This document shows positions 13,738 to 34,599 of a DNA stretch of 64,000 nucleotides, piece by piece. The DNA lies in assembly GCA_948567375.1 (NCBI GenBank), contig OX419760.1:12090001-12154000 (forward strand). The letters run 5' to 3'. Source of the DNA: Lunularia cruciata. Taxonomy: Eukaryota; Streptophyta; Marchantiopsida; Lunulariales; Lunulariaceae. Positions within the stretch are counted from its first letter, which is position 1; every line of letters begins with the position of its first letter. The notes beneath the pieces are model-generated. The model was given only the letters and a program-made list of their open reading frames with translations, was not told the origin of the DNA and did no database searches. A program made the position numbers and the translations under genes.

Positions 13738-14011
13738 AGAAAGGCAAACTCACAATTGATTATTGTGAATGGGATCCTAGATGGCAATCAGATAAGAGTA
13801 TTGATAGATTCTGGAGCAACAGAGAATTATTATCTCGCTCTATTGCAATAAAATTGGGGATGGATCTAGAGAAAAATGAGAGCAAAGAGTTACCTAATGG
13901 GCAAACAAAGAAGATTGAGTCGTTATCCAGAAGAGTAACACTCTTTGTAGAAGAATATCAAGAAGTAATTGAGTGGCGGGTGATACAATTAGCTCATTAT
14001 GATGCAATCTT
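13738..14011 (+). pseudogene. Chromovirus-1 protease region, cut by element D
   Basis: The plus-strand text VLIDSGATENYY has the aspartic-protease active site D-S-G-A intact. It follows the expected NGILDG-like strand and precedes LPNGQ and VTLFVEEYQEVIEWRVIQLA. The frame stops abruptly at 14011, where element D begins, and resumes at 30784. Chromovirus-2 has lost the active-site motif at the same place. Confidence 0.75.
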
Positions 14012-14670
14012 TGTTTTGTGTATATGCATTGCTACAAAACATACATTGTTGTCAACATCATACACTATAGAAGCACAACTCACACATAAGTCATACATGA
14101 ACTCTAAAGTGGCACAATAATCAGATTGTTTACAACTTGAATCAACTCAAATCAGATCAGTACTTGATCTGATCCTCAACAACTTGCTCACAACAGGGCA
14201 TTGATTACAGTCAAGTTACACTCACTCTAGCTAAGAGACTCTAGGTGATACTTGTCGGCTTTCTATCCACTCTAGCCAGGAACTCAAAGGCTCAACATCA
14301 AAGAAGTGAGCTCTTTGGAGCTGCACTTCCAAGGTATACTCCTTATTTCAACCTAGGTCTCATCCCAATGGTCCCACTGATGGCACACCCGACGGTGTGC
14401 ACAGTGCAAGTGACGGTGGGCCCCACCATGAAGTCAATATCCCAAGCAAAAAATCTGATTGTCATAAAATAATCTATGAGTAACTGCCAAAATGCCTCTA
14501 ACTACTATCATTGGAACTCTAGTGTTCAAGCAATCTAGATGCAACACTACAAATGGTGTGACAACTGTCTTGTGTATATACATTGCTACACAACATACAT
14601 TGTTGTCAACATCATACACTATAGAAGCACAACTCACACATAAGTCATACATGAACTCTAAAGTGCCACA
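14012..14670 (-). repeat. Element D 3' LTR flanked by a 105-bp direct repeat
   Basis: The part shared with the 5' LTR is 14118-14563. On either side lie near-identical 105-base segments, 14012-14116 and 14566-14670, both starting TGT[TC]TTGTGTATAT and ending GCACA or CCACA. The 5' LTR lacks them. A G-run on the minus strand at 14671-14680 (CCCCCC on plus) could be the polypurine tract, which would place the true LTR border at 14670. The structure is unresolved. Confidence 0.6.
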
Positions 14671-14844
14671 ATTGCCCCCCTAGCTGGCAGTTAGGTCCCT
14701 CTTACTCCAAATAGCCATCTACTTCAAGTATATGGTATACCCTATGATGGGCAAAGATCATGAGGTCAGGTGCTATGGAGCTCCATCATTTGTCGCATGT
14801 CTGCAATCTATACCATAAAACGGATGAACTAGCTACATGTCAGG

Positions 14845-14946
14845 TGCATCTAGGAAATAACCGCTGTCCTTGAGGAACCACCGTGAGTGGAGGAGTCATA
14901 CATGCCATATGCCATCCTCTTGAACAGCTATTGCACACTAACATAG
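14845..14946 (-). pseudogene. Element D PHD-type zinc finger, distal half
   Basis: The minus strand from 14945 reads VCNSCSRGWHMACMTPPL and ends FPRCT before a TGA. This is the C-terminal half of a PHD finger: C-x2-C, the G-W-H-x2-C core, PPL, and a final C-x2-C pair whose first Cys is Phe here. The proximal half lies at about 21558-21600, right after the integrase tail (AGLRCMY), beyond chromovirus-2; when one CATAG and the insert are ignored the frame runs through TTMLV into the finger. PHD fingers commonly read methylated or unmodified histone H3 tails. Here the finger takes the place a chromodomain has in chromoviruses. A single-base frameshift lies between the first Cys pair and the rest. 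Confidence 0.7.
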
Positions 14947-15685
14947 TGTAATACTCCGAGGACAAGAGAAGAGAGAAAACACAGATTGCACACTCAAACA
15001 TTCGATGCCCCAAGGAAGCACCTTCTCTTTATTATTTAGACAAAGAGGATCTCCTCCAAGGAAGCTCCACCATAGGATTAGGGACACAGGTAGGTGACAT
15101 GTCAGCAAGCTCCACCCTTGGATTACTTACTTGGATGGGTGACATGTCTGGTCTAGGTCCTATCTGGTTGGTCAAACAAGCTTTGACCAGAGGGAATCTT
15201 TTAGGGAATCTTCTTGTAGGAATCTCAAAATCACGTGAGTAAGGTACCATTGGAAAGCTCTCAATGAGACAAAGCAGGGGGAGGGAAGGCCAGCCTTTCC
15301 TCCATTGGGGGGGGGAATCTACAAATTTTTTAGGCCTAATTCATCCGTTTAGGCCTCCAAAATTGCCTTCAAAGATTTCAGGCATATTTTGGTTCCTACT
15401 CTATTAGTAGAAGTCCCCTTTTGGTGATACCTCTTTCTGATCTGTTTAGTCCATCATTTGTAACATCCTTCCGAAGGTTACCAAACCAATTCTCACCTTT
15501 AAATCATATGTCTAGCTATTGGTTCTAAGGTTCTCAAGTCTATTTCTATTTCTGCCCTATTTGTAGAAGTACTCATTTGGTGATACTTCTATCTTATCTA
15601 TTTTGACCATCATATTTAACATCATTCTAGATGTTACCAAACCAAATTTCACATCTAGATCATATGGCTAGCTCTTGGTATTACA
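14947..15685 (-). repeat. Chromovirus-2 3' LTR
   Basis: This 739-base repeat matches 20815-21552. Like the chromovirus-1 LTR it has an internal near-duplication of about 155 bases at the U3 end (around 15495 and 15651). A run of G at 15307-15315 is shorter in the partner LTR. Confidence 0.95.
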
Positions 15686-15701
15686 GACCTCCCTCCTTTT
15701 A
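15686..15701 (-). other. Polypurine tract of chromovirus-2
   Basis: The minus strand reads AAAAGGAGGGAGGTC directly before the 3' LTR. It overlaps the end of the pol frame (stop at 15699-15701). Confidence 0.8.
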
Positions 15702-17060
15702 AGACGCAATGTCCTCGTTGTGCAATTGTTGCTCAAATACTTGCACCAACATAGGTGCATGTGCCAAATTGGCAGCGGGCTCCCAGGTGGCTTCATAGAG
15801 GGGGTAACCTTTCCATTGTACTAGATAGTCCATCCACGGATGGCAAGTACCACGCATGCGTTTTTGGAGAATCCGCTCCACTTCATATTCCTCTGTGCCA
15901 TCAATGAGTGTCGGACAAGGTCGAATGTCTTGTGTGGAATGACCCTGGCCTGATCGGGGAGCATATCTGCGTAGTAAGGAGACATGGAACACTGGATGGA
16001 TCTTCATGTGTGGTGGTAGCTCAAGGTGATAGGCCACAGCGCCGATGCGACGAAGAATCAAGAAAGGCCCAATAAAATGAGGTCTGAGCTTACGAGGTCC
16101 AACTAATGTGAGGTTGGTTGTTGATAGCCACACTTGATCCCCAACATTGAACTCCATGTGCCTACGGTGTGCATTAGCATACTGCTTTTATCAATTTTGT
16201 GCAATCTGTTATCTATGCTTGGCACTCTCCACACCTTGTTGGATTCTAGAAACAAATGTGTTGACTGCATCGACCTTGGTAGCCATTGGACAGATCTTCA
16301 TGAAGCTAGAAGGTGTGAAGGGATGCTCACCATACATGAGGAAGAACGGAGTGACCTAGGTGGATGCATTCACTGAATTGTTGTAAGCAAATTCCACCAA
16401 CGGAAGTAGGGTGTCCCACCTCTCTTGCTCTTCTAAGGTGAACCCGTGTAACATGTCTTCAATTGTGCGATTAGCCCGCTCTATTTGGCCATCTGTTTGT
16501 GGGTGGTAAGCTATGGACATGGCCAACTTGGTTTTGAAGAAACCAAAAAGTGTTTGCCAAAACAAACTGGTGAATTGGGTGCCTCTATTGGTGATGAGTA
16601 CTCTAGACAGGCTATGGTGAGCAAAGACTGCATCTAAGTATAATTGAGCTAGTTGTGGAACAGTCACCTCCTTGGTGGTAGGGCATACATGAATCATTTT
16701 GCTGAGCCGGTCCACAAAGACCACAATGGAGTCAAACCCTGAGGTGGTCTTGGGTAATTCACAGACGAGATCCATACTCACTTGTTCCCAACGTTGGGTA
16801 GGAGTGGGGAGAGGTTGAAGGAGCCCTACAGGAGCTTGATTAGAAGTTTTGTTCTGTTGACAAAGTAGGCAGCTACGCACATAGTCCATCATGTCATTGC
16901 TCATCTTGGGCCAATAGTAATGGCGCTTGATTGCATCCAAGGTCTTGTCCACTCCGACATGAGCTGCAATGGCCAAATCATGACATTCCGCTAGAATGGT
17001 GGTGCGTAATTCTGGGACATTTGGGATCCATAATCTGCCATCCCAAAAGGTGAGTCCTTG
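15699..17060 (-). pseudogene. Chromovirus-2 integrase and chromodomain
   Basis: The main frames are 16976-16356 and 16157-15699. The zinc-binding part (H-x-G, C-x2-C in SCLLCQQ) precedes the catalytic core: first Asp in VSMDLVCELP, second position LITNRGTQF, Glu in DGQIERANR. The second catalytic Asp is Asn here (codon 16587-16589). The distal frame has the integrase tail (GDQVWLSTTNL, GPFLILRRIG, HPVFHVSLLR) and a chromodomain, YLVQWKGYPLYEATWEP, near the end. A TAG after NSVNAST separates the two frames. Chromodomains of chromoviruses guide integration to methylated-histone chromatin. Confidence 0.9.
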
Positions 17061-17135
17061 GGTGCTGGTGACACCTTTGGATGATTGTGCTTCTACAATC
17101 TATGGATCAGTTTTTGTAGCAGCCAAAATCTCTTG

Positions 17136-18500
17136 CTAGAATTCAGGGTTAATCTTAACCTCTACCACCAAGTTGTTGGCCATTGGCATGCGGGTGAATG
17201 CATCTGCAAGTTGCTTCTTACCTTCCACATAGGTGATTGTCATGTTGAAGCATTGTCGCCACTCTGCCCACCGAATTTGGCAATGAGATAGATCTTTCTG
17301 CATCTCAAGGTAGACTAGAGGTTTGTGGTCTGTCTCTATTACAAATGCTTTCTTGCCTAGGTAGTGCTTCCAATGCTTGGTTGCTAGAACGATGGCCAAC
17401 TCTTCTCATCCTGTGGTGTGGTAGTTGCGCTCTGCGGGTAACAACTTGCAAGAGAAATATGCAATTGGATGCCATCCGTCATGCAACTCTTGTTGTAGGA
17501 CTGCTCCTATTGCTATGCCTGATGCATCTATAGCCAACTTGATTGGACGTTTTGGGTCATACCACTTCAAGATTGGTGCATGTAGCAAGGCGGCCTTCAA
17601 TCTTGAAAGGCCAACTCTTGTGCAATTCCTCATGTCCACTTCGTCCCCTTGCCAAGTAGTGCCGTTAAAGGCTGTGCAACCTTGGAGAAGTCCTTGACAA
17701 ATCTACAATAGAATCCCGTCAACCCCAAGAAGCTCTTAAGTTGAGTCTGATCTTCTGGGGCACTCCATTTTTGAATGACCTCTATTTTATCTATCAATAC
17801 TTGAATGCCCTTTGCACTTACTCTATGCCCTAAGTAGTCTACTTCAGACTTGCCAAACTCACACTTTGAGATTTTGGCATACAACTGATTCTGTCTTAGA
17901 ATCTGGAGGACCTCTCGTAGATGTTGTTTGTGTTCTGTCATCGTGCTACTATATACTAAGATATCATCCAAGAAGACGATAACAGACTTATCCAAGTATG
18001 GACGAAATATGTCATTCATTAGACTCATGAAAGTGGCAAGTGCATTGGTGAGGCCAAAAGGCATCACAAGATACTCAAAGTGGCCATACCTGGTTCAAAA
18101 GGTAGTTTTGTACACATCTTCCTCTACAATTCGGATTTGATTGTAACCTCTCCGCAAGTCCAGTTTGGTGAAGTGTCTCGCTCCATGGAGTTGATCAAAC
18201 AGGTCATCCATGCGAGGTAAGGGGTATTTGTTCTTCAGTGTTTGCTGATTGAGACCCCGATAGTCAATGCACATGCGCATTGTACCATCCTTCTTCTTCA
18301 CAAACAAGACAGGGGCCCCATATGGTGATACGCTAGGTTGGATGAACCCTTTCTGCAGCATCTCCTCAATTTGAGTCTTACACTCCTCCAACTCATGAGG
18401 TGATAGGCGATATGGGGCCTTACAAGGAGGTGTCTTCCCTGGGAATGTCTCTATTTTGTGATCTACTCGCCTTTTTGGTGGTAATCCTGAGGGTAGATCA
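17136..18500 (-). pseudogene. Chromovirus-2 reverse transcriptase and RNase H
   Basis: RT landmarks in order: [48 protein letters not shown], then MPFGLTNA and [12 protein letters not shown] with both catalytic Asp residues. RNase H follows: IKLAIDASGIAIGAVL, then FVIETDHKPLVYLE and GKKQLADAFTR. Lesions include TGA near 18093 (probably from CGA), TGA near 17641 where chromovirus-1 has TGG, a one-base deletion near 17600 and TGA near 17404. The last stop is also present in chromovirus-1 at the matching codon. Confidence 0.9.
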
Positions 18501-19060
18501 TCAAGAAAGACATCTTGAAACTCATCCACCACATCCTTCAATTTCTCAAGAATTTGTCCATCGAGTTGTGCACTCTGGACTTCTCTTATTAGACCCATAA
18601 AACATCTATCGGTCTTATAAACAGTTGCCATCCCTATGACATATAGAGGTAGTTTCTGCTTGTGTGATTTTTCTTTAACCTCAATGATTGACCATTCGTG
18701 GGTTCTCACTACTTTCTTCCTCCAATCCACCATAGGGTTGTACTGCTCCATCCATTGCATGCCTAAAATTGCATCATAACGAGCTAACTGTATCACTTGC
18801 CACTCAATTGCTTCTTGATATTCTCCTACAAAGAGGGTTACTTGTCTAGGTAATGATTCAATCCTCTCTGTTTGCCCATTTGGTAACTCTACTTCTTCAC
18901 TTCCATCTCTCTCTAGATCCATTCCCAATCTTATTGCAGTAGAGCAAGACAAGAAATTCTTTGTTGCTCTTGGATCTATTAATACTCTCACTTGATTACC
19001 TTCTAGGATTCCATTCACACCAATCAATTGTGAGGTTGCCTTTTGGGATCTTTGTGCATT
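18500..19060 (-). pseudogene. Chromovirus-2 aspartic protease region
   Basis: The minus strand from about 19060 gives [19 protein letters not shown], then P-R-A-T where the family has S-G-A-T (chromovirus-1 keeps DSGAT at 13795-13820). The flanking text ([43 protein letters not shown]) is well preserved. The active-site motif is therefore lost although the fold is readable. A frameshift between the zinc knuckle and this region (about 19060-19120) cuts the polyprotein. Confidence 0.75.
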
Positions 19061-19122
19061 ATTCTTCTTCTTTCCCTTGCTTCTTTGCTTCCTTATTGAG
19101 CTAGTAAGGCTGCGAGGTACAT

Positions 19123-20211
19123 TTACTGGTGATCTTTGTTTTTTGAAGTGATTTCCACCTCCTCCTCTTCAATGTGCCTCTCCATGTTGTTCAAAGATCG
19201 CCTATACAAAGGCCGAGGGCCTCTAAGGAAACAAGTGCGATAGTTGGTAGATATGTGCCCAATACGGCCACAATTGTAACAACGGCGTTGTTCTCCTCGA
19301 GTCCCTTCTCCTCGTGGGACTCCATCTCTTTGTTCTTCTACCCGTCCCCGCTCCCCTTGAAGCAATCGTGCTCCTCAATCCCGGAATCAAAGGTTGCCCA
19401 ATTCCATTGGTACTGGTCTACCCATGTGTGGCATTTTTGCCCGATAATGTTGAGGTGGAACTACTCCTTCACCTCCACCTAATGCTCCTACTATTCTCTA
19501 TGTACAAGCAATGGCTTCAAATACCGTGCGAGGATTTTGCACCATGACTTCTTGGGGAATCCGCTCTTTCAACCCTCGTTTGAAATTGTCGAGAGCCTCT
19601 GTTGGACTCATGTCGGTAATTGTGACTTGTAGATCTAGAAATGTCTCCAAATACCCTTGTACGTTATTCTTCTGTCTCAATCCCCATAGTCGGGTTCGAG
19701 CCATCTGCACAGAATCCACCGATTGGAAATTCTTTAGCAGTCTTTCTTGCATTGCTGTCCATGTGACCTCCCTTCTCTCTGCCAGCATGGATCATTCCCA
19801 AGTATCATACCATGTGAGGGCTTTATCGGTCAAGTACCCACATGCAAACACGCCTGCAGCATGCTCTGTGATCTCTGTATTGAACAATCGGAAATATTGA
19901 TTCATTCTCAAGATCCAATTTTCCACTGCTCCCATCGTACGCTGCCCCTTGTAAGGCTCGATGTTGCAGGTCTTCTTCATCCAGAGTAGCAATGTGCCTT
20001 CATCATTGATAGGGTTTGTAGGCACGGGTGCCTCTCCAAGTACTTCAGTCGCAGGTACTGGGTTTTGAGATGGCTCTTCTTCTTGCATGGCTTGATCGTT
20101 CCTGAGGATCTGCACTTGACTTTGTAATGTCTCCATGGTCATCTTAATCTCTTGAAATTCAGTCAACATCCCTTGCATTCCTTGCACCAACTCTTGCAAC
20201 TGCAGATCCAT
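19123..20211 (-). pseudogene. Chromovirus-2 gag
   Basis: The start is ATG at 20211 (MDLQLQELVQGMQGML). The Gag core reads CNIEPYKGQRTMGAVENWI, FACGYLTDKALTWYDTWE, then TGA at 19789-19791, then REVTWTAMQERLL and a TAG near 19496. The knuckle region (19365-19123) is CYNCGRIGHISTN followed by Tyr, so the last zinc ligand Cys is replaced (TGT to TAT). A coiled-coil-like N terminus is likely. Confidence 0.85.
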
Positions 20212-20244
20212 GGTTCTTGCAACACTCAATTGCTAATGTCTACT

Positions 20245-20674
20245 TCAATACAGAGTCAATATAATCACTCTGGAAGGTGCACTGACTATCAAATCTACCA
20301 TTGGGACCTCAGAAGCTATCACTCGTTGATAATACTCCTCACCAAAATTCCTAACCACAAAATCTCTAAACATCACTTTTGACCTTACTATATAACGGAT
20401 TTCTACTTGAGTGTTGAAAGGGAGAGGATATGGGACATTCATATCTATATTATCATAATAGAATGTAGATTTTCAAATCCCACTCTCTGTCATATATCAC
20501 CACAGGTAGAATCATCGGGTTTGGTGAGTTCATCACTCTATCCATGAATTCCGTACCAAAGTGATAAACTAGTGATACCCTCATCTACTCACGCTGGATG
20601 TACATAACCTTGATTTGGAATGGGTTTGAGAATGGAAAGCTAGGTGCGGGAAATTGTCCTCCCGGCGCATCCAT
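20245..20674 (-). pseudogene. Chromovirus-2 ORF0, two related halves upstream of gag
   Basis: From ATG 20674 the minus strand reads MDAPGGQFPAPSFPFSNPF and SLVYHFGTEFMDRVMNSP, with one TAG inside. After a one-frame shift near 20455 it reads NTQVEIRYIVRSKVMFRDF and VRNFGEEYYQRVIASEVPM to a stop at 20245. The frame shift between halves is at the same place as in chromovirus-1. The halves look like a tandem duplication of a domain of about 58 residues. No family was recognised. Confidence 0.55.
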
Positions 20675-20800
20675 CCCATCCGCTCTCTAAAGTCCTTCCT
20701 AAGTCTAGCGATTACTCTATGTTCTCTACCTCAAATTACTCAGTTTCAGTAGTTCATCCTATTCCAAGAGGGGTGATCCACTCTCTTGGACTAAAATACT

Positions 20801-20813
20801 CACTTTGATACCA
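20801..20813 (-). other. Primer-binding site of chromovirus-2, tRNA-iMet type
   Basis: The minus strand reads TGGTATCAAAGTG one base inside the 5' LTR. The first eight bases match the initiator-Met primer site. Confidence 0.8.
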
Positions 20814-20814
20814 T

Positions 20815-21552
20815 TGTAATACTCTGAGGACAAGAGAAGAGAGAAAACACAGATTGCACACTCAAACATTTGATGCTCCAAGGGAGCACCTTCTCTTTAT
20901 TATATAGACAAAGAGGATCTCCTCCAAGGAAGCTCCACCATAGGATTAGGAACACAGATAGATGACATGTCAGCAAGCTCCACCCTTGGATTACTTACTT
21001 GGATGGGTGACATGTCTGGTCCAGGTCCTATCTGGTTGGTCAAACAAGCTTTGACCGGAGGGAATCTTTTAGGGAATCTTCCTGTAGGAATCTCAAAATC
21101 ACGTGAGTAAGGTACCATTGGAAAGCTCTCGATGAGACAAAGCAGGGGGGAGGGAAGGCCAGCCTTTTCTCCATTGGAGGGGGAATCTACACATTTTTTA
21201 AGCCTAATTCATCCGTTTAGGCCTCCAAAATTGCCTTCAAAGATTTCAAGCATATTTTAGTTCCTACTCTATTAGTAGAAGTCCCCTTTTGGTGATACCT
21301 TTTTTTGATCTGTTTAGTCCATCATTTGTAAAATCCTTCCAGATGTTATCAAACCAATTCTCACCTTTAAATCATATGTCTAGCTATTGGTTCTAAGGTT
21401 CTCAAGTCTATTTCGGTTTTTGCCCTATTTGTAGAAGTACTCTTTTGGTGATACTTCTATCCTATCTATTTTGACCATCATGTATAACATCATTCTAGAT
21501 GTTACCAAACCAAATTCACATCTAGATCATATGGCTAGCTCTTGGTATTACA
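20815..21552 (-). repeat. Chromovirus-2 5' LTR
   Basis: This is the 738-base partner of 14947-15685, with the same TGTAATAC/GTATTACA ends. It is followed outside by the second CATAG target duplication. Confidence 0.95.
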
Positions 21553-21557
21553 CATAG

Positions 21558-22720
21558 TAGTAGATCCATTGGAAGAGATGTATACATACACCTCAAGCCT
21601 GCTTGTATAAGTGCCAAGCTTGGGTCCATAGTACCATCAATGTTTAGGAGGTGGCATGGTGCACAATTGTGCACATGATCCTTCCAAACAACACCATCAC
21701 ATCCTTCTAACACAAGGACTCCAGATGGCAAAACCTCATGCACTCTCAAGATAGTGCGGCCTGCCAAAACATCAAGTGTCATTGGTGCTATTTGTTGTAG
21801 ATATACATAGTCACCTGGATAAAATTGACGGATCAAGGGTCTATAACCTCCTCCTCAAATAGTAGCATAATGTAAGGTATCCTTATGTTGAGCAATTACC
21901 AAGTTCTCAAAGGTCATTGGCATCACTCTCCAAAAGAGCTCTGCCTGTTGAGAACATGCGCTCACCCATACATCGAGATCATCCAAGTCTAAGACTATAG
22001 TAGCATCTTGACAAATGACTATAGGTAAATTTGGATCTTGTCCATAGAGTAGAAATTACGGAGAGAAGGATGCTAAGGAGGCTTGCCAATGGAACCGATA
22101 GCCCATGGCCAACCAAGGTAACTAGAGATCCCAATCTCCCAAGTGGCCTCTCTGCAAACCATATTTTTGCAATCCTCTCTTCACCATCTCAACCACGCTC
22201 TCTGCTAAGCCATCTGCCTTAGTGATCTTGGGAGGTAGTACAGTGATCAATCAAAGCCTTGTCATACAAGACCTGAAACTCACCCAAGAACTTTGTACCT
22301 TGATCAGTCAAAACCTCAATTGGTGCACCAAAATGACTGAGAACCCGATCCAAGAACGAGTAAGCCATCCCTTCATTGGACTTATCAAGAAGTGCTACCA
22401 ACTCAATCCACTTGGAAAAGTGCTCTACCATCACCAAAAAATAAGATGATGTCTCACAGTCAATGGTAAAGGTCTGGCAAAGTCCAAACTCCAATGGTAA
22501 CCCAATCCCATGATAGGGAATGGATGCAACTGTGGCGTAGGAGCATTGAATGATCCTCTAACTTGGTCACAAACCACACATCTGGCAACAAACTTTTGTA
22601 CATCAGTCTACATATTGTGCCACCAATAATGTCTCTAGAGTAAGCTATATGTATGCATTTTTCCAAAATGTCCTAGCTTCTCATGAGCATGACAAACTAC
22701 TTATAGTCTCTAAGATGGAA
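21558..22720 (-). pseudogene. Element D integrase and start of PHD finger
   Basis: The core includes a first catalytic Asp in the LDFA phrase near 22475, the second in VLTDQGTKFLGEFQ (frame 22494-22219) and the Glu in ADGLAERVV near 22210. The C-terminal domain (frame 21836-21522) reads FYPGDYVYLQQIAPMTLDV, AGRTILRVHEVLPSGVLVLE and NCAPCHLLNID, then LIQAGLRCMY, where the PHD finger begins. The text is cut at 21557 by chromovirus-2. All three catalytic residues are still visible, but frames are broken repeatedly. Confidence 0.8.
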
Positions 22721-22849
22721 GTGGTACTACTCTCACTCTACCATCCTCCCATACATGCAAAAGGTATCTGCCCTCCAATTTGAACCATCTAGCTCACTAA
22801 AAAACATGGTCTCTCTTCTTGGCCCCAACTATGCCACCCACAACACCAA

Positions 22850-23460
22850 TGCAAACATAATCCATCACTAAGACATCATCATGAATGTCTCACTAAACTG
22901 TACCAATATTTGCACTCTCTAGATCTATGACCTCAATAAATCCTCCTATATGCATTGAGAGAGATACCACCAAAGCCTCAAAAAATATACAAAAAAGGCA
23001 AATGCATGCCAACTTGGCACCATCTCCTCATTTGTCTCACCATGCCAACGTGCTCCGACCTTATCCTACTGATTGGGACATGGGTTTCTACTCAACCCAT
23101 CTACATCACGGTTCATCACTCCAAATCTATGAAGAACCGTGAAATCATACTCTTGTAAAATCAGAGCCCATCATGCAAGCTTTGTTGAAAGCTTGTTGGA
23201 CTCCATCAACCACTTTAATGGCTAATGATCAATGATGAGAGTGAAAGGATTACCAAATAGATAACATCAAAAATGTGCTATTATCTAAACTATTGCCAAG
23301 CACTCTCCCTCATATGAACTATACTTTTCCTCCACTGAATTATGGGAGCGACTAGCATTGGCCAACACTAACTCATTCTCCTCATCATCATGTTGAGTGA
23401 GCATTGCTCTAATCCCCAACATACTCCAATCAGTGTGAACCTGAAATGGTCATCCTCTGA
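22850..23460 (-). pseudogene. Element D RNase H region
   Basis: The minus strand carries LILQEYDFTVLHRFG followed by VDGLSRNP, the usual end of the Ty3/gypsy RNase H/connection region. Upstream text fits the N-terminal RNase H strands but is full of stops. Confidence 0.6.
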
Positions 23461-24420
23461 TTGGTATCCTCAAAATAGAAGCAGATGTCAACCTCTCCTT
23501 GAGCTCTACAAAATCTCTCTCCTACTCATCTCCCCAACACCACTCTTGTGTAAGCTTGGTCATCCTCGTCAAGGCCTTGGCAATGGCACTAAATCCTCTA
23601 ACATAGCGGCAATAGAAGTTCACCAACCCAAGGAATGCTCGCACTCTACTCACATCTGTAGGTCAAGGAATATGTGCAATAGCCTCCACCTTGGTCTGCT
23701 GAACACCAAGTCCTCCCAGGTAGATACTTTGACCCAAATACTCAACCTGCTCATGGAAGAACCTACACTTCCTAAGATGTAATTTGAGTCTATGAGATCT
23801 CAACCTCTCAAACACCTCCAACAATTAACTCTCATGCTCCTCCACAATAGTGTTATAGACCAAAATGTCATCAATATAGCACCAAGCAAAATCCAATCTA
23901 GCTAGGATCCTATCCATGACCCTTTGGAACTCAGCATGAGCATTCTTTAACCCAAATGGTAAGACCTTCCACTAATATAATACATCCTTGCCGTGAGGAT
24001 CAATAGCCCAAAATGTTGTCTTGGACTTATCCTCCTCCCTGATTGGCAATTGATGATATCTTGCTCAAAGATTCAAAGTACTAATGACCTTTGCATGCCC
24101 AATTACATCAAAGATCTCCTCCGGTGTAGGCATGGGATACCGATCAGCCCTAGTTTGTCGGTTGATAGGATAATAATCTCCACACATTTGCCTATTTGTG
24201 CAGTTGCCATGCATATCCTTCTAGGCTGGCATCATTGTTGTTGATGCATACTCTCCATGTGAAATCTCCACCAAACCAACCTCAAAAAGGTCACTACTCT
24301 GGCTTTAAATCAATATCCTTTCCATATCACTATATCAATAAGGACATCAAGAAATTGGTTTATCGCTAGTTAGCTCAATCTATATACTAGGTCTCTTCAT
24401 AGCAACCAAATCCTTCATAC
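23460..24420 (-). pseudogene. Element D reverse transcriptase
   Basis: Landmarks on the minus strand: C-x-DYxPINRQT, RYPMPTPEEIFDVIGHAKVI, LPIREEDKSKTTFWAIDPHG, VLPFGLKNAHAEFQRVMDRI and WCYIDDILVYN with the YIDD box at 23867-23878. Downstream, LKLHLRKCRFF and GLGVQQTKVEAIAHIP mark the thumb. The catalytic Asp pair is intact. In-frame stops interrupt the fingers and the thumb. Confidence 0.85.
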
Positions 24421-24849
24421 TGAAGGCAAAACAATTAGTGTAGCTCTTCAAGAACCTCCAAACCCTCTGTCTTTCCTCTCCTATAAGCTTGGGTCCAAGA
24501 TCTGGCTCCCAAGTATCCTCTGTAACTATAGTAGGAGTGGAAGACGTACTGACTAGTTGCTATACTAGGCCCTTGGGAGCAATAGTGTCATGCTCCCAAT
24601 TACTAGAAGTCCCAACCTCTATGTGAAAAACTCCCTCTGATCTGGCTACAAGCTCCATACGTCCTCTAGTTCATCCCAAGTAGACCAAGGGTGTAATCCA
24701 AGTAGACCATGCTCACTTGGATGGACTCCAAGTAGACCACTCTCCCTAGTAGCCATTGGTTGCATCCCAAGAAACCCTGTCCACTTGGCCCATCACTCCC
24801 AACATGTGTTGAATTGTCTCGATAGGCATAAGCTTCACAAGTGTCCAAG

Positions 24850-26130
24850 TGGTGATGCTTATCAAGCAGATCCTATGTTGCTCTGCCAAGCCAAGGCTCA
24901 CAATCCAAGACAAATAGTTCAAGTCTATAGCCTGACCTAACACTTGATGCCTAGATGCCTCTCACACTATTGGAATAGTGGTAATACTGGAGCAAAAACC
25001 CATCGCCCGCTCTTTCTCATTAGTGTTGGGCTCCACCAACTGCTATAATTGTGAGTCCCAAACCAATCCAAGACCTCCTTCTCAAAAAGCATGAGAAGCT
25101 AGGAAACTCATAAGTGTGGGAAAAGCGGCTCTAGGCATCTAACTAGGTTCACCATACCACAGGTGACCTATCAGCCACTACCACTATTTGAGACTGACAC
25201 CCAACATCCAAGATGTCATCAAAAGGATGTGGTCTAGTCATTGAATCCCATCGTATGCACCCTATAGAACCTCTCTGGGTAAGAGGTTTAGGTTCATCCA
25301 CCAAAGACAAAGACAATGAGCCCATGATCTCACTCTAGTGGCATCTAACAATACAGCAAGTCCCATCCAAGAATGGACTTGATGTGTACTCGCCACCACT
25401 TTGGTGCAAGAATCACCCATCAAAGGAATGTTCTCCAAAAGGTAAGCTAGAGAAACAGATTGATGGACCAGAGATGTCATAGTATCCGTAATATCTCCCA
25501 AAACACACCAAAATAGAGATCCTGAAGACCCAAACCTTGGCCAACATGTGTATGCCCCTGACATGGCCATCCAAAAATCACCAAGTGAACAAGCCCATAT
25601 CTCTCTAGATCATGCGCCCACAGTAAGGAAATATTTGCTGGTAGGGTCTTTTGGTAACCCTTGACTGTTGATATTAGTAATAACTCAAGATATGGGTAGG
25701 CCAAGTGTGCCACATGATGTAGAGAAACTTGCCTAGCAATCTCATCTCTCTCCACATACAAGTACCTTTATACTTGTATACCCGCCTGTAGTACCGTAGC
25801 TAGTTTGGTGCTAATCCTACCAAACAACTCTAATAGACATACTCCCTCTATTGGATACTGCCAAGAAATGAGTGTGGTATCTAGAGGTGTCAAGGTAATC
25901 AACTTCAGAGGCTCATCCTCACACTTATCTCCTAGTGATACAAAGGCTCCACTCCAAGCTTGCTGCACCAACCAATCTGCATGTTGCTGCAATGCCTCCT
26001 CCAAACTCCACAAATGGAACATCCAAGGTGGATAGAAAAATTCCACTTGTACTCCAAATCCAAGTGATCTCCTCTGGTACTAGCGTATCTTTTGCATGGG
26101 CATTCCACTCCAATAAGTCACTAGGCTAAG
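24850..26130 (-). pseudogene. Element D DNA (cytosine-5) methyltransferase domain, decayed
   Basis: The domain sits between protease and RT. Motifs in order on the minus strand: motif I CLLELFGRISTKLA (SAM-binding loop, near 25830); motif II YVERDEIAR after a TAA; motif IV HLVIFGWPCQGHTHVG with the catalytic Cys codon at 25561-25563; motif VI AYLLENIPLMGD with ENI at 25428-25436; a motif VIII-like RVRSWAHCLCLWW, where two Arg are Cys; a target-recognition-like stretch; and motifs IX/X EPNTNEKERAMGF and QVLGQAIDLNYL. The enzyme family transfers methyl from SAM to cytosine C5. The domain is about 330-400 residues, full length for a stand-alone catalytic core. Lesions: stop in 25762-25767, a frameshift near 25450, several stops downstream. 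Host origin versus long-term retroelement gene cannot be told here. Confidence 0.85.
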
Positions 26131-26165
26131 TAACAACACCACTAAAAGTTGAAACTGATGTTGCG

Positions 26166-26750
26166 TGGTCCCGAACTATAACACCCATTTGTGCATGTGT
26201 GTGGTATGGTGATATTTAGCTTAGTATAACAAGTACTTGAGAGATATTATTTATATAGATAAAGGATGGTTGTACATTAGTCATGATTTGCTAAAGTTAG
26301 TCATAGCTAAGATAGAAGGGACCTTACTTTAGAGGAAGTGGAAAAGATAAGCACCACTATTTTGGATTCTAGTGTGTTGACTTGGTATTATTCCTAAGTG
26401 TTTGGCTATGAGGAAAGAGTTGAGAACTCTTGGGCCCCGCAAGCCTTTTTGTTTTGGATTCTTCTATAATCCAAGGATATCCCATGTGAAGGAATCCTTG
26501 ACTTAGTAGTTGGGTCAAGATAAGATCACATGCTAAGTGGGATATGCTCATATGGATGAATATTCCTTTATAATTTTTGACTTTACTTGACATTTAGCCT
26601 AGTTACTTGAGTTACTATGGTAAAAAGTAACTTTGGTGTGTAACTATTGCACAAGCATATAAACTAGGGGTGAGGGGGTACTCATCATCCTTTCATTTGC
26701 AACTATCTCTATCTCATTGAGTTCTCTAGCGAGCAATGTCTTGAGTCTTG
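26166..26750 (+). mobile_element. Probable solo LTR inside element D
   Basis: Protein similarity of element D breaks off near 26750 on one side and resumes near 26165 on the other. The segment starts TATAACACCC, close to the TGTAACACCC start of many plant LTRs, and has CATATAAACTAGGGG near 26658, a TATA-like core promoter. A GTTA near 26757 may be the decayed end. I could not find a clean target duplication, so borders are approximate. Confidence 0.35.
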
Positions 26751-26859
26751 GAATGTTAGCCTTAGAGGAGTATGATGGAGTTGGAATTCTTTGCCTTCTT
26801 AGTCCATGGTACGCTGCCATAATAGCTATTAGAGGTTCATCCTAAGTGAGAGACAAGCC

Positions 26860-27270
26860 GGCTCACAGGACTATAGTGAGCCAAGACTACCACTACTGAA
26901 GCATACTGGTAGGCAACATACTCATCCCTCACCAAACTGCCAACCTAGTCTATAGGAGGTTGTCTCCTCCCAATAGTCAATTATAACCCATGGGGTATAG
27001 CATTGCTCCATCGATTAGCACATCATATGACTCAACTATGGCCGCAATAGCCTTAGCTCTCACCACCGAGCTATCAATTGGATGACCAGGCTGAACCTAG
27101 ACAATAAGCTCCCCACGTGTAATGTACTATGTCAAACCACCACCTAGAGATGTTTGGATTTGAAATGGACACCTCTCCACATCGATCATCCATAACCCTA
27201 GACTGACAACTATAGCCTTCTCCAACGTAAAGGGCTATGCACCAAAGTCTCATAAGACTCTCTATGGTGT
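26860..27270 (-). pseudogene. Element D aspartic protease region
   Basis: The active-site strand reads D-F-G-A (codons at 27238-27249), where D-S-G-A is expected. It is followed by LEKAIVVSLGL, CPFQIQTSLGGGLT, VVRAKAIAAIVESYDVLIDG and AMLYPMG, then DYWEETTSYRLGWQ. The spacing fits a retroelement protease with a long tail. Stops at several positions. Confidence 0.65.
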
Positions 27271-28029
27271 ATAGACCTTCCTTGAAGGTCCTACCAAATG
27301 AAAAATCCCCCTCTGGTTATCTAATATGACAACACCAGGTGTGAACTGTGCTCTCTCAAAGGCCGGTCTAGTTGGTAACTCCTCAAATATAACCGCTATT
27401 GCCTACCATAAACCATTGGTTGCTAAGCGGATCCCATGCTCCTCAACCAAATCAACTCCACTACCAACCAGCTCTGCTCTAGAAGAAGGAACCACATCAT
27501 CCCTACTCTCACAAAGCATGGAAGCCAATTTGAATATTAGGGCTGGGTCAACTCCCAATGTACACATGTCACTGGCTGAAAATAAAACATAGTGCACAAT
27601 CAGCTAAGCCGCCTCCAACATCATTCTAGACTCAATTGTGTAGTAGTAGGTGGTTGACTAGCAGGTAGTCTATCATGCACCATATCACCACCTACTACAC
27701 TTGCACTAGGATGTCTAGGAGCTATGGATGACATCTGTAGTGCCTCAAAGAGCATGAAAGATTGGGGAAGTTTGACCTATCTCCCAACCTCTCCTCTTTG
27801 TGGATCCAACTCCACTGATGCTCCTCTAGGCTCTAGAGCACGTATTGCACTCCTAATCATTGCTATAGATGCATCCACCGATGCTACTCCGCACATGAAG
27901 TCCAAAGCATCTCTATCACCAACATATGAGGTGGAAGCCTCAGCATCCAACTCTGATCTCCCCTAAGCAATGGCCAAACTAGCCAATCTCTGCTCCAACT
28001 TCTTAATCCGAGTAGCCATAGTTGTATCA

Positions 28030-29403
28030 AAAGTAAGGGTAGGTATTGCACCCCTACTAGGTGTAGATCTTCTACCACCTTGTCCTCCATGAACTGGAGC
28101 TCCTCTACCACCTACCATAGCAGCCCTACCACTCCATAACTTTGGGTGTAGGTCAAAGCACCGGTCATTAGGGTAACCAAATCTATGGCAATGCTCACAC
28201 TGCCTCTATGTTGGCTATGATGCACCAGAGGTATTATGTCCACTGCCCCGAGGGCACTCTCCCTTTTGATGAGATCCACCACAAGTCTAACAAGCAACAC
28301 CACTACTCATTGGCTACTATTGACCCAAAAGTGAAGGTACTAACTATAGTAGGCCCTTCACTTGCTCCATAGGACCTAGGCTGTCTACCCTATCCTCAAA
28401 AACCAATTGGACATGATGCACTCTTCTGCACTCTAGAAGAAGCCATGGATGAGGTCTCCCTACCAAATCCAGATGTCACCACTCTCTCCTCCACTATGTT
28501 GAGCTCAATACACTTAAAAAACCAAAGATCATTGCCAAAGTGCATGAAGTAGCCTATAACAACTAGCATCATGAACTCTACATCATAACTCTTTATCTAG
28601 TATCCCATACCAAAACTAGACTGCCTGGGCCTTAGTAACTCCCTGAGTGAAACTGATCAGCCGTCTCATACAAGTGTATGTCTCACATAGGCTCTCTCTA
28701 GCCTTCCGTTGGAACTCTTACAAGCTCTTCAACTTGTCAGTCCGCACTCTTTGGTAGTTCTGCCTCAAACACTAGAAGAATTCCAGCATGGGATTAAACC
28801 TCAATACCACACCACCTCTTGTAGTGGTACCTCCACTTGTAGTAGCACTATCTCCAGCTAGTGCACCTCCACTAGCTCCACCAACGCTACTCAAGCTAGA
28901 ACTTGTGGGTACTACCGATCTACTCCTTGCAACCAAGCTTGAAGTGATAGAGATATAGTTTGGAGACCAATATTGTCTCCATAACTCAATCTCCTCCAAG
29001 TGAGCTCTCTTGAACTCATGGTAATCATCTATCGCATCCTCCAAATGCTAGAACAGCCCCTTCCATGCCATGAAGGGTGTGAACAAAGTTGGATTCTGCA
29101 TCTGTTGCAGATCACACCAACTATCAAACTCCTAGATGAAGTCATCCAACTCAATGGTACCCAATATACTAGAGTAATGCCTAGGGCCTTTGGAGGCCCC
29201 ATACATCTTGTCCATGTCCCACAACAATGGTGCATACACCCCAAGTGCACTCTCAACTAAATCAGCTCTTGTGTCAAACTCCAACTCATAGTAAATCTCT
29301 TCCCTCATAGAGACTTGAGATATAGGTTGATACCGAGAGCCACTCTGAGTAAACCCACTATGTATTGTAGGTCTATTTCCTCTAGAATCCCCAAAGAACT
29401 CCA
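28030..29403 (-). pseudogene. Element D gag with two zinc knuckles
   Basis: A likely start is ATG at 29403 (MEFFGDSRGNRP). The Gag core runs through FNPMLEFF, YQRVRTDKL and EFQRKARESLCE. Two CCHC arrays follow: C-x-TCGGSHQKGEC at 28254-28292, with the x a TAG, and CEHCHRFGYPNDRC at 28158-28199, where the His ligand is Tyr. A Gly-rich linker (GGRGAPVHGGQGGRRS) and a long region to about 27270 lead to the protease. Having two knuckles separates it from the chromoviruses, which have one. Confidence 0.7.
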
Positions 29404-30328: not shown

Positions 30329-30778
30329 TGATGTAATCAGATCATTTATAACTTGAATCAACTCAAATCAGATTAGTATTTGATGTAATCCTCAACAACT
30401 TGCCAACAATAAGACACTGATTATAGTCAAGCCTCACCCACTCTAGCTAAAAGACCCCAGGTGATGCTCATCGGCTTTTTGTCCACTCTAGCCAAGAACT
30501 CAAAGGCTCAACATCAAAGAAGTGAGCTCTCTGGAGCTGCACTTCCAAGGTATACTCCTGATTTCAGCCTAGGTCTCATCCAAATGGTCCCATTGACGGC
30601 ACACCTGACGGTGTAGACATTGCAAGTGATAGTGGGTCCCACTATGAAGTCAATACCCTGAACATGAAATCTGACCGTCAAAAAGTAGTCTATGATTAAT
30701 TGCCAAAATGCCTCTAACTACTATCATTGGAACTCCAATGTTCAAGCAATCTAGATGCGACACTACAAATGGCATGAC
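30329..30778 (-). repeat. Element D 5' LTR
   Basis: It matches 14118-14563 in direct orientation, with many transitions. On the minus strand it starts GTCATGCC (TG if the shared A is counted) and ends TTACATCA. It abuts the ATCTT duplication at 30779-30783. Confidence 0.8.
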
Positions 30779-30783
30779 ATCTT

Positions 30784-32400
30784 AGGCATACCTTGGATGA
30801 AGTAATACAAACCTATGGTAAATTGGAGGAAGAAAGCATTGAGCACCCGCCAATAGATGATCATTGGGATTAAAGAAAAGGAACATAAGCAAAAATTATC
30901 TCTCTATGTTAAAGGAACAACAACTATCTATAAAACAAATAGATGTTTCATGGGTTTAGTAAGGAAGTCCAGAGTGCACAACTCGATGGACAAATTCATG
31001 AGAAATTGAAAGATGTGGTAAATGAGTTTCAAGATGTCTTCCCAAGATCTACCCTCAAGATTATCACCAAAAAGGAGAGTAGATCATAAAATTGAGATAC
31101 TTCCGAGGAAGACACCTCCTTGTAAGTTCCCATATTGTCTATCACCTTAGGAGTTGGAGGAGTGTAAGGCTCAAATTGAGGATATGCCACAAAGGGGGTT
31201 TATCCAACCCAACATATCACCGTACGTGACTCATGTCTTGTTTGTGAAGAAGAAGGACGATACAATATGCATGTGCATTGACTATTGGGGCCTCAATCAG
31301 CAAATAGTGAAGAAAAAATATCCTTTAACCTGCATGGAGGACATATTTGATCAACTCAATGGAGCAAGATACTTCATGAAATTGGACTTGTAGAGCGGTT
31401 ACAATCAAATTTGGATTGCAGAGGAAGATGTATACAAAACTGCCTTTCAAACTAGGTATGGCCATTTTGAGTACCTTGTGATGCCATTTGGCCTCACCAA
31501 TGCACATGCCACTTTCATAAGGCTGATGAATGACATATTTTGGCCATATTTGGATAATTTTGTTCTTGTTTTCCTAGATGGCATCTTAGTATATAGTAGG
31601 ACTATGACAGAACACAAATAGTATTTGTAAGAAGTCTTCCATATTCTAATATAAAATCACTTGTATGCCAAAATCTCAAAGTGTGAGTTTTGCAAGTCTG
31701 AAGTAGACTACTTGGGGTAAGAGTAAGTGTAGAGGATATCCAAGTTTTAACAAAAAAAGAAGATTTCATTCAAAAATGGAGTGCTTCAGAAGATCAGACT
31801 CAACTCAAGAGCTTCTTGGGGTTGATGGGGTTCTATCGGCAGTTTGTCAAGGACTTTTCCAAAGGTGGCATAGCCTTTAACATCACTACTTAGCAAGGGG
31901 AAGAAGTGGACATGGGGAACTGCACAAGAGTTAGCCTTTCAAGAATTGAAAGACACCTTGCTACATGCACCAATCTTGAAATGGTATGACCCAAAATGTC
32001 CAATCAAATTGGCTACCAATGCATCAAGCATAGCAATAGGGGCATTCTTACAACATGAGTTGCAAGATGGGTGGCATCCAATTGCATACTTCTCTTGACA
32101 GCTATTATCGACAAAACACAATTATCACACCATAGAGTGAGAAGAGATGGCCATTGTCCTTGCAACCAAGCATTGGAAGCACTATCTTGGCAAGAAAGCA
32201 TTTGTAGTGAGATAGACCATAAAGCTCTAATCTACCTTGAGACACAAAAAGATCTATCTCATCATCAGATTTGGTGGACAAAGTGGCAAAAATTATGCAC
32301 CATGACAATCACCTACGTGGAAGGCAAGAAGCAACTTGCAGATGCATTCACCAAAATGTGATGGCAAACAATTTGGTGGTAGAGATCAAGATGGACCTTG
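30784..32400 (+). pseudogene. Chromovirus-1 protease end, RT and RNase H
   Basis: Coding text resumes here after element [52 protein letters not shown] and [11 protein letters not shown], in which the second catalytic Asp is Gly (codon 31580-31582). RNase H: WHPIAYFS, EEMAIVLATKHWKHYLGKKA and an ending EGKKQLADAFTKM. In-frame stops are frequent, and the TGA before EEMAIV matches one in chromovirus-2. Confidence 0.85.
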
Positions 32401-32439
32401 AATTTTGACCAAAGATTCTAGTTGCTACAAAAACAGATC

Positions 32440-33820
32440 CCCAAATTGTAGGAGCTCAATCATCCAAAGGTATCACCAACAACCAAGGACTCACTTTTTG
32501 TGATAGTAAATTATGAATCCCAAATGCCCCAAAATTACGCACTACAATTTTAGCAGAATGTCATGATTTTTCCATAGCATGTCATGTTGGAGCGGACAAG
32601 ACCTTGGATGTTGTCCAGCACCATTATTATTGGCCCATGATGAGCAACGATGCAATGGAATATGTTTGGAGCTGCCTACTTTGTCAATAGAACAAAGCCT
32701 CTAATCAAGCTCTTGAAGGACTCCTGCAACCCTTCCCTATTCCTATGCAACATTGGGAACATGTGAGTATGGATCTAGTTTGTGAATTGCCCAAGATCAC
32801 CTCAAGGTTTGACTCCATTGTAGTATTTGTTGACCAACTTAGCAAAATGATTCATGTACGCCCTACCACCAAGGAGGTGATGGCTCCATAACTAGCTCAG
32901 TTGTACTTAGATGCAGTCTTCTCTCACCATGGCTTGTCTTGAGTGCTCATCACCAATAGAGGCACTCAATTTACTAGTTTGTTTTGGAAAACACTCTTTG
33001 TTGTCTTCAAAACCAAATTGGCCATGTCCACGGCTTACCATCCATAGACTGATGGCCAAATAGAGCGGGCTAATCGCATTATTGAAGATATGCTTCAAGG
33101 TAGGACACTTTACTTCCATTGGCGGAATTTTCCTACAACAACTCAATAAATGCCTCTGCCCAAGTCACACCATTCTTCCTCATGTATGGTGATCATCCTT
33201 TCATACCTTCAAGCTTGATGAAGATCCATTCAATGACTACCAAGGTTGATGCTATCAACTCTTTTGTTTTGAGGATCCAACAAGGCGTGGAGAATGCCAA
33301 AAATAGGTTGCGAATTGCCAAAAATTGGTAGAAGTAGTATGTCAATGCACACAATAGGCACATGGAGTTCCAAGTGGGAGATCAAGTTTGGCTATCAACA
33401 ACCAACCTCACAGTAGTTGGCCCTTGCAAGCTCAAACCTCACTTTATTAGGCCTTTTCTCATTTTTCATTGCATCGGTGTTGTGGCCTATCACCTCAAGC
33501 TACCACTACATATGAAGATCCATCTAGTGTTCCATGTCTCCCTCCTATGTAGATATGTGCCCTAAGCAGAACATTGTCCTTCCATACAAGACATTGGACC
33601 TTGTCCGACACTCATTGATGGCATGGAAGAATACAAAGTTAAACGCATTCTCCAAAAATGCATCCATGGGACTCGTCACCCACGTGTGGAATATCTCATA
33701 AAATGGAAAGGTGACCTCCTATATGAGGTGACATGGGAGCCAGCAGCCAACTTGACCCATGCACCAATTTTAGTAAAATCTTTTGAGCAATAGCTTTGTA
33801 ACGATGACGTTGCGTCTTAA
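32440..33820 (+). pseudogene. Chromovirus-1 integrase and chromodomain
   Basis: Integrase landmarks: HHYYWPMMSND, SCLLCQ, VSMDLVCELPK, LITNRGTQFTSLFWKTLF and TDGQIERANR. As in chromovirus-2 the second catalytic Asp is Asn (AAT at 32955-32957). The tail reads GDQVWLSTTNLTVVGP and HLVFHVSLLCRYVP, and the chromodomain YLIKWKGDLLYEVTWEP lies at about 33690-33745. About 60 bases are missing around 33095-33110 relative to copy 2. Confidence 0.85.
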
Positions 33821-33833
33821 AAGGATAGAGGTT

Positions 33834-34599
33834 TGTAATATCAATAACTAGACATATGATCTAGAGATGAAATTTGGTTTGGTAACATCTGGGAGGATAT
33901 TATACATGATGGACTAAGTGGATCAGACAGAGGTATCACCAAAAGAGTACTTCTACTAATAGGCCAAAAACCGAAACATGCTTGAAGACTTTAGAATCAA
34001 AAGCTAGACACACGATCTAGAGATGAAATTTGGTTTGGTAACATCAGGGAGGATGTTGTACATGATGAACTAAGTATATTAGACAGAAGTATCACCAAAA
34101 TATGACTTCTACTAATAGGGTAGAAATAAAAATAGGCTTGAAAACTTCAGAGGCAATTTTGGAGGCCTAAATAGATGAATTAGGCCTCAAAAATGTGCAC
34201 AACACCCCCCTCCCTCTTCCTCCTCCTCCAATGTAGATAAAGGCTGGCCTACCCTCCTCCTTGGCTTGTCTCACCAAGAGCTTTCTAATGGTACCTCACC
34301 CACATGATTTTGAGATTCCTAACATAAAGATTCCCTAAAAGATTCCCTTTGGTAAAAGCCTGATTGACCAACCAGATAGGACCATGACCGACATGTCACC
34401 CATCCAAGAAAGTAATCTAAAGGTGGAGCTTGCTGATAGGTCACCTATCCATGTACCTAATCCTATGGTGGAGCTTCCTTGGATGAGATCTTCCTTGGCT
34501 ATATAATAAAGAGAAGGTGCTCCTTTGGGGCATCGAAGGATTGAGTATAAAATCTATATTTTTTCTCTTGAAGAGTTCTCATGTCCTTGGAGTATTATA
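33834..34599 (+). repeat. Chromovirus-1 3' LTR
   Basis: It begins TGTAATAT and ends GTATTATA, each with one change from the family ends. A purine tract, AAAAGGATAGAGG (33819-33831), precedes it. Confidence 0.85.

Follow-up and report, generated by a model that had tools for sequence, protein, structure and literature searches.

The question raised by this locus is whether a retrotransposon in the genome of a land plant can carry a DNA methyltransferase as a part of itself. The window under study is a 64,000-nucleotide stretch of the Lunularia cruciata genome (assembly GCA_948567375.1, contig OX419760.1, positions 12,090,001 to 12,154,000 of the forward strand), and all coordinates given here are positions within it. 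Working from the letters and their reading frames, a first-pass annotation had placed a DNA cytosine-5 methyltransferase (DNMT) at 24850..26130, on the minus strand between the protease (PR) and the reverse transcriptase (RT) of a Ty3/gypsy retrotransposon, element D. The decayed domain of element D is indeed a C5-methyltransferase of DNMT3 type, and its relatives in the same genome show that it belongs to the element.

All of the expected motifs were recovered in order on the minus strand, from 25836 to 24920. The annotated interval does contain the DNMT, but the region with its linker extends beyond it on both sides and lies in two frames:

24752..26158, minus strand: DNMT3-type C5-methyltransferase region and linker (tblastn with Marchantia protein P0002, residues 773-1246, 47-57%; motifs; homologues; fold of relative P0016)
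25836-25819, minus strand: motif I, LLELFG (this and the next six by sequence reading)
25755-25741, minus strand: motif II, VERDE
25572-25552, minus strand: motif IV, GWPCQGH
25441-25424, minus strand: motif VI, LLENIP
25345-25298, minus strand: motif VIII
25012-24995, minus strand: ERAMGF
24946-24920, minus strand: motif X, QVLGQAIDL

Two changes of frame were located, one in the linker ahead of the DNMT at about 26014 and one at about 25.47 kb, after motif IV and before motif VI; the piece 26079-25477 contains one stop, and the rest of the region, to 24752, contains eight. Scores of the Pfam profile PF00145 on pieces of this decayed copy were marginal (E 0.024 and 0.069, under cut-off) and were dropped as deciding evidence because they are too weak. 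The protein search was far more telling. When one raw frame (26079-25477, its stop written as X) was used to query a database of 5.8 billion sequences, 13 matches were obtained with E values from 2e-48 to 2e-26, which excludes chance similarity; 12 of the 13 were hypothetical proteins named as Marchantia polymorpha. A domain scan of eight among these matches identified RVT_1 with RT_RNaseH in two and RT_RNaseH in one, and PF00145 scored above the Pfam cut-off in the DNMT relatives, unlike in D. The closest named match was to Calypogeia for D's first DNMT piece (60%) and to Marchantia for the second (48%). Among solved C5-methyltransferases, DNMT3 was nearest in both sequence and fold (the fold being that of relative P0016), and the motif order is not rearranged; DRM is a rearranged relative of DNMT3. 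No DNMT1, CMT or DRM chain appeared among the 50 rows of the VIA-align structure list for P0016, where absence proves nothing.

Motif VIII had been described as poor in arginine. The shortage is real, D retaining Arg at only 7 of the 22 DNMT sites where it is found in five or more of six relatives, but it is not a native trait. Ten of the 15 lost Arg codons are TGN or CAN, one C-to-T or G-to-A step from CGN as in deamination, with motif VIII accounting for three of them, so we attribute the shortage to C-to-T decay.

The remainder of element D was traced by tblastn with Marchantia P0002 and P0010, which gave an unbroken domain order along the minus strand; P0031 added the integrase (IN). Element D is an approximately 10-kb element with the organisation gag-CCHC-PR-DNMT-RT-RH-IN-PHD (RH, RNase H), and its gag-PR-RT-RH-IN order, gypsy-type RT and DDE integrase are those of Ty3/gypsy:

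28562..29215, minus strand: gag (tblastn with Marchantia P0002, residues 1-213, 60%)
28158..28199, minus strand: CCHC zinc knuckle, His decayed to Tyr (inside the P0002 alignment 28343-27705, 45%)
26983..27585, minus strand: aspartic protease region (tblastn with P0002, residues 529-728, 40%)
26159..26891, no strand: about 730 bp without family similarity, probably a later insertion (alignment gap; GC 0.384; no long open frame)
23024..24511, minus strand: reverse transcriptase and RNase H (Pfam RVT_1 4.5e-23, RT_RNaseH 1e-27; grouped in a tree with Marchantia RT)
21552..22889, minus strand: integrase and C-terminal part (PF00665 6.5e-9 on 22219-22557; tblastn with P0031, 1190-1638, 36%)
14947..21552, minus strand: element A, nested inside D's PHD finger (long terminal repeats (LTRs) at 14947-15685 and 20815-21552, 705/737 identical; CATAG duplicated on both sides)
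14846..14944, minus strand: second half of D's C-terminal PHD finger (PF00628 E 1.2e-4; tblastn with P0031, 1635-1667, E 7.5e-6)

The motif DSGAQ or DTGAQ is common in the protease of relatives. D's half of the PHD finger scored 22.5 bits with PF00628, 1.5 bits short of the cut-off of 24. Element A, in which the family tblastn gave no DNMT match, sits inside D, and D is therefore the older of the two. With its stops, its frameshifts and element A in its PHD finger, element D is dead. A third gypsy element lies near D's 5' end on the plus strand (31000-34570) and is related to A (inverted similarity 76-95%); its low CpG and CHG ratios, 0.22 and 0.36, are the values given below for element C.

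We then turned to the host genome (565.8 Mb in 74 contigs), which yielded at least 123 matches to PF00145, all above cut-off (123 of 2161 first-look candidates scored). Eighteen of these had open frames of at least 800 aa, the longest being 1428 aa. Every sixth row from row 6 was taken as a sample of 20 copies, and 3' ends were fetched for ten of them. All 20 contained a DNMT 64-72% identical to that of Marchantia, followed by RT at nearly fixed spacing; within the fetched stretch gag was found in 16 and protease in 18, and nine of the ten copies with 3' ends had a PHD finger. Since the same order is found in Marchantia models and in 20/20 copies, the DNMT belongs integrally to a Ty3/gypsy element and did not enter D as a separate insertion. 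The DNMTs of 13 ungapped copies are mutually 94.6-98.8% identical and D is about 85% identical to the copies; the family thus expanded recently, and D is one of its older relatives. The lineage probably still carries such elements, as the first-pass annotation had suggested, because the terminal A repeats described below are 94-99% alike in 10/10 copies and open frames reach 1428 aa.

Host enzymes gave a separate signal. Four of the first eight PF00145 loci (L005-L008) were retroelement copies with RT, and the other four look host-encoded. The host DNMT3-like locus L001 shares a DNMT3-like catalytic domain with D's family but is distant (28% over 124 aa), and the host DNMT3-like, DRM and CMT-like pieces are all distinct in sequence from the retroelement DNMT. 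In a tree with 19 retroelement rows, the host DNMT3-like and DRM pieces, which are short (107 and 139 aa), split off with 99/98 support. Outside the element, an S-acyltransferase exon at 47883-49250 had its best match, among candidates of up to 796 aa, in Calypogeia fissa (48% over 97%, 339 bits) and its next named one in Diphasiastrum (216 bits), in keeping with a probable liverwort or liverwort-like host.

The family extends well beyond Lunularia. A search with the DNMT region of Marchantia matched 61 of the 7993 candidates scored, from Marchantia, Calypogeia fissa, Sphagnum fallax and many entries without a species name; scans of viral_contigs with P0020 and P0050 found no relatives. Two domain orders were apparent: type 1, gag-PR-DNMT, with RT following in some models, and type 2, RT-RH-DNMT-IN-PHD. 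Five Marchantia models (P0004, P0010, P0013, P0014 and P0015) continue from DNMT into RT or RNase H. A DNMT tree built by a quick method from 47 of the 61 proteins and two window pieces (49 rows) separated type 1 from type 2 (26 type 1 rows, SH-aLRT 100) and grouped both D pieces with sequences of Marchantia, Calypogeia and Sphagnum in a clade of 14 rows (99). The same split was repeated in an RT tree of 20 proteins and two window pieces (three type 1 rows, 99/99), and D's RT is 71% identical to Marchantia P0010 over 354 columns. The type 1 DNMT was at least as conserved as the protease in 12/12 comparisons. The motif IV Cys was kept in 28/28 type 1 proteins and 27/27 others covering the site (the count placed the Marchantia fragment P0056, which ends short of motif IV, and P0060 with type 2), and the catalytic Cys, the motif VI Glu and the motif VIII Arg hardly vary, even in relatives at 30-42% identity to the query.

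Three further features of these relatives were observed. Of the 27 type 2 proteins covering the PC of motif IV, 12 have Glu in place of Pro and all 27 keep Cys; the Pro is present in 29/29 type 1 proteins covering it. The host exon L001, of which L004 is a second, interrupted copy, has PCQDLS, a form of motif IV that several type 2 retroelement DNMTs share. The divergent P0060 combines DNMT and RT in one protein with DNMT first (DNMT-RT-RH-IN-PHD), which is intermediate between the type 1 and type 2 orders. Eight proteins (P0031, P0037, P0041, P0046, P0052, P0053, P0057 and P0060) have an extra conserved domain after the PHD finger with DPWAG, ND and PP-like stretches; it resembles a second, perhaps adenine-type, methyltransferase, and Pfam assigned nothing there in P0031, P0037 and P0054.

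How the enzyme might be made is suggested by a fixed stop codon. Both domains, DNMT and RT, were present in 20/20 copies, and in all 20 a TAG in the RT frame, 186 bases ahead of the RT match, separates gag-PR-DNMT from RT. In five copies (L012, L015, L016, L019 and L020) the frame closes exactly at this TAG and reopens right after it in the same frame, and in L016 the frame ahead of it is open for 1292 codons. The nine-base context was TAGCAGCCA in 15 copies, TAGCAGCTA in two, TAGCAGTCA in one and TAGCAGCAA in two. Element D has retained the codon at the place common to the sampled copies:

24560..24562, minus strand: D's TAG, in the context TAG CAA CTA (TAGCAACTA at 24562-24554)

D and 18 of the 20 copies fit TAG-CAR-YYA, which we take to be the leaky stop class of tobamoviruses, a group of plant viruses. 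Eleven database proteins (P0019-P0029) likewise have no RT after the DNMT. The leaky type of this context suggests that the DNMT is a Gag-side product, probably made together with Gag, and that RT is a read-through product.

At its ends D has, rather than a simple LTR pair, split repeats in the order A-coding-B-A-B, with a 4-bp duplication outside:

30780..30783, minus strand: target-site duplication AAGA, 5' side (by eye)
30332..30779, minus strand: 5' repeat A1, starting TGTC (389/449 identical to 14118-14566; 75-78% to the 5' repeat in 15/20 sampled copies)
14566..14672, minus strand: repeat B1 (103/107, or 96%, identical to 14012-14118)
14118..14566, minus strand: repeat A2 (pairs with A1)
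14012..14118, minus strand: repeat B2, D's 3' end (pairs with B1)
14008..14011, minus strand: target-site duplication AAGA, 3' side (by eye)

The same layout was found in all ten family copies with ends fetched, with no B beside A1. A pairs were 93.8-99.1% alike in 10/10, and B pairs 98-100% over 107-108 bp. A simple LTR pair was rejected for D and these ten copies, as B flanks A2 on both sides and is not present at the 5' end. By eye, a 4-bp duplication stands right outside TGTC...CA in nine of the ten, and none was seen at L020. DIRS and Ngaro elements use a tyrosine recombinase and are not known to make a target duplication; membership of that group was rejected for D's family given its DDE integrase (rve) and the 4-bp duplication in D and 9/10 copies. 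D (14012-14672, 30332-30779) and L029-L038 combine a DDE integrase and target duplications with DIRS/Ngaro-like split repeats.

Retroelement DNMTs are known from dinoflagellates and a charophyte, as the first-pass annotation noted and as the text available from PMC5890265 describes. The closest described element is KnitGypsy-Dnmt3 of the charophyte Klebsormidium nitens, in which a Dnmt3-type DNMT with conserved key residues lies in the coding frame of a Gypsy element present in several copies, with repeats arranged, per a figure legend, as in DIRS, A-coding-B-A-B (PMC5890265). What D and ten of ten copies show in repeat layout was therefore already known, as were a gypsy backbone and a DNMT of Dnmt3 type. 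The two differ in that the KnitGypsy DNMT is in the Pol frame according to that paper, whereas the DNMT of D's family closes the gag-PR frame before the fixed TAG; in the PHD finger, a term absent from that paper's main text; and in their hosts, an alga and bryophytes. This likeness is judged from the paper's descriptions, not from sequences, and no K. nitens name occurred among the protein-search matches to the DNMT of D or Marchantia. SymbioDIRS-Dnmt3 and SymbioLINE-Dnmt of dinoflagellates also carry DNMTs, the DIRS ones with D's repeat layout, but are tyrosine recombinase or LINE elements in other hosts and separate acquisitions per the same source (PMC5890265). The type 2 gypsy proteins (P0031-P0055 without P0047, and P0057-P0059) share with D a related DNMT (33-42% identity to Marchantia P0002, best E 2e-65), RT-RH, IN and PHD; unlike in D, their DNMT lies between RNase H and integrase, and some have the extra conserved C-terminus. 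In line with the first-pass annotation, which knew of no standard description in this type of plant, our searches of an open-access library gave no report of DNMT retroelements in bryophytes, with supplements, figures and subscription journals outside that scope; the available text of two papers on bryophyte DNMTs (PMC10952607, PMC6453930) makes no mention of one. A 2025 survey, in its accessible part, repeats 'streptophytes and dinoflagellates' for such elements (PMC12344493), and according to the available part of a review, land plants, 'such as tracheophytes', have no transposons with DNA methylases (PMC6338049). Three features are new as far as seen: hosts among the land plants, a PHD finger, and a conserved TAG of leaky type that follows the DNMT.

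What, then, might the enzyme do? The family DNMT, whose catalytic residues are conserved in relatives, may be able to methylate DNA, possibly the element's own cDNA, as was first supposed. We favour, with a confidence slightly above even, a model in which the leaky TAG places DNMT at Gag level in the particle, where the element's own cDNA would be methylated before integration. Most translation would end at the TAG after the DNMT, which would be made at about Gag level and packaged, RT and integrase being rare read-through products. The protease would free the DNMT, and the freed enzyme would methylate the double-stranded cDNA, most likely at CG, before integrase inserts it, with the PHD finger perhaps helping to select chromatin for insertion. 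New copies would then arrive already bearing the host's mark of silent DNA. Ideas of this kind have precedent, since de Mendoza et al. suggested cDNA methylation, cDNA protection or slowed transposition, and SymbioDIRS-Dnmt3 domains methylate CG in yeast, according to the text available from PMC5890265.

Several observations weigh against this model. The KnitGypsy-Dnmt3 domain gave no methylation in yeast, a result that its authors call inconclusive (PMC5890265, available text), and two of the 20 copies deviate from the TAG-CAR-YYA read-through motif. Nor have the copies a DNMT-specific footprint, as their CpG and CHG depletion is no stronger than in elements A and C. Observed/expected CpG was 0.36-0.44 in 18 copies and 0.30-0.31 in two with foreign sequence, against 0.41 in the DNMT-less A, whose repeats are similarly diverged, and 0.22 in the older, likewise DNMT-less element C; D itself stands at 0.19. 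CHG stood at 0.72-1.27 in the copies, above the 0.63 of A and the 0.36 of C and hence less depleted. Such depletion was consequently rejected as a sign of self-methylation, elements without a DNMT being as depleted or more. Within the genome, for pairs with Ks above 0.02 and with frameshifted copies left out (leaving 17/20 for the DNMT and 13/20 for the control), median Ka/Ks was 0.39 for DNMT (17 copies), close to the 0.22 for gag, 0.33 for PR and 0.28 for RT. In-frame DNMT gave 0.41 against 0.48-0.79 in five wrong readings (13 copies), and we did not rely on Ka/Ks as proof of selection on the DNMT, the wrong-frame control being only slightly higher.

The strongest competing explanation, which we nevertheless consider unlikely, has the DNMT at work in the nucleus once the element has integrated, instead of marking cDNA in the particle. 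Guided there by the integrase with its PHD finger, the enzyme would act on host chromatin or on the copies of the element itself and would damp or hide the element, allowing host and element to coexist. The DNMT3 fold, the PHD finger in nine of ten copies and the long coexistence suggested by at least 123 PF00145 matches in one genome are all consistent with this explanation, as is the slowed transposition discussed by de Mendoza et al. (PMC5890265, available text); however, a DNMT that adjoins the protease in the gag-PR frame, ahead of the TAG, favours action in the particle. Still more doubtful is a role in which catalysis on DNA matters little and the domain mainly binds nucleic acid, or methylates RNA, as a component of the particle. 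Its Gag-side position, the inactivity of the KnitGypsy domain on yeast DNA (PMC5890265, available text) and an in-frame Ka/Ks only weakly below the control readings would fit such a role, but the near invariance of the catalytic Cys, the motif VI Glu and the motif VIII Arg in relatives as distant as 30-42% identity argues for catalysis. Chance similarity, or a host DNMT gene fallen once into D alone, has nothing in its favour but the marginal Pfam score of D's decayed copy and is refuted to near certainty by the E value of 2e-48, the DNMT in the same place in 20/20 other copies and the different host DNMT pieces.

Taken further, the in-particle model can be joined to a history, which we put forward tentatively and with less confidence. 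One old bryophyte and charophyte Ty3/gypsy lineage with split DIRS-like repeats may have captured a DNMT3 once, before land plants, and may still be spreading; a DNMT3 held at Gag level by stop-codon control would methylate its own cDNA, the integrase PHD would steer insertion, and the DNMT would later have changed place, giving types 1 and 2. Because the algal element has split repeats too, a single old capture is likelier than the separate algal event inferred in the available text of PMC5890265. If shared layout means shared descent, the capture predates the K. nitens lineage to which it was there assigned. The bryophyte elements also contradict the general form of the statement on absence from land plants in the accessible part of PMC6338049.

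With a TAG standing between DNMT and RT, the enzyme may be made in unexpectedly large amounts. Plants fight transposons mainly by DNA methylation, a defence that an element with a methyltransferase of its own may exploit for itself. Why a retroelement should seek to be methylated can now be put to the test, Marchantia being a laboratory plant.
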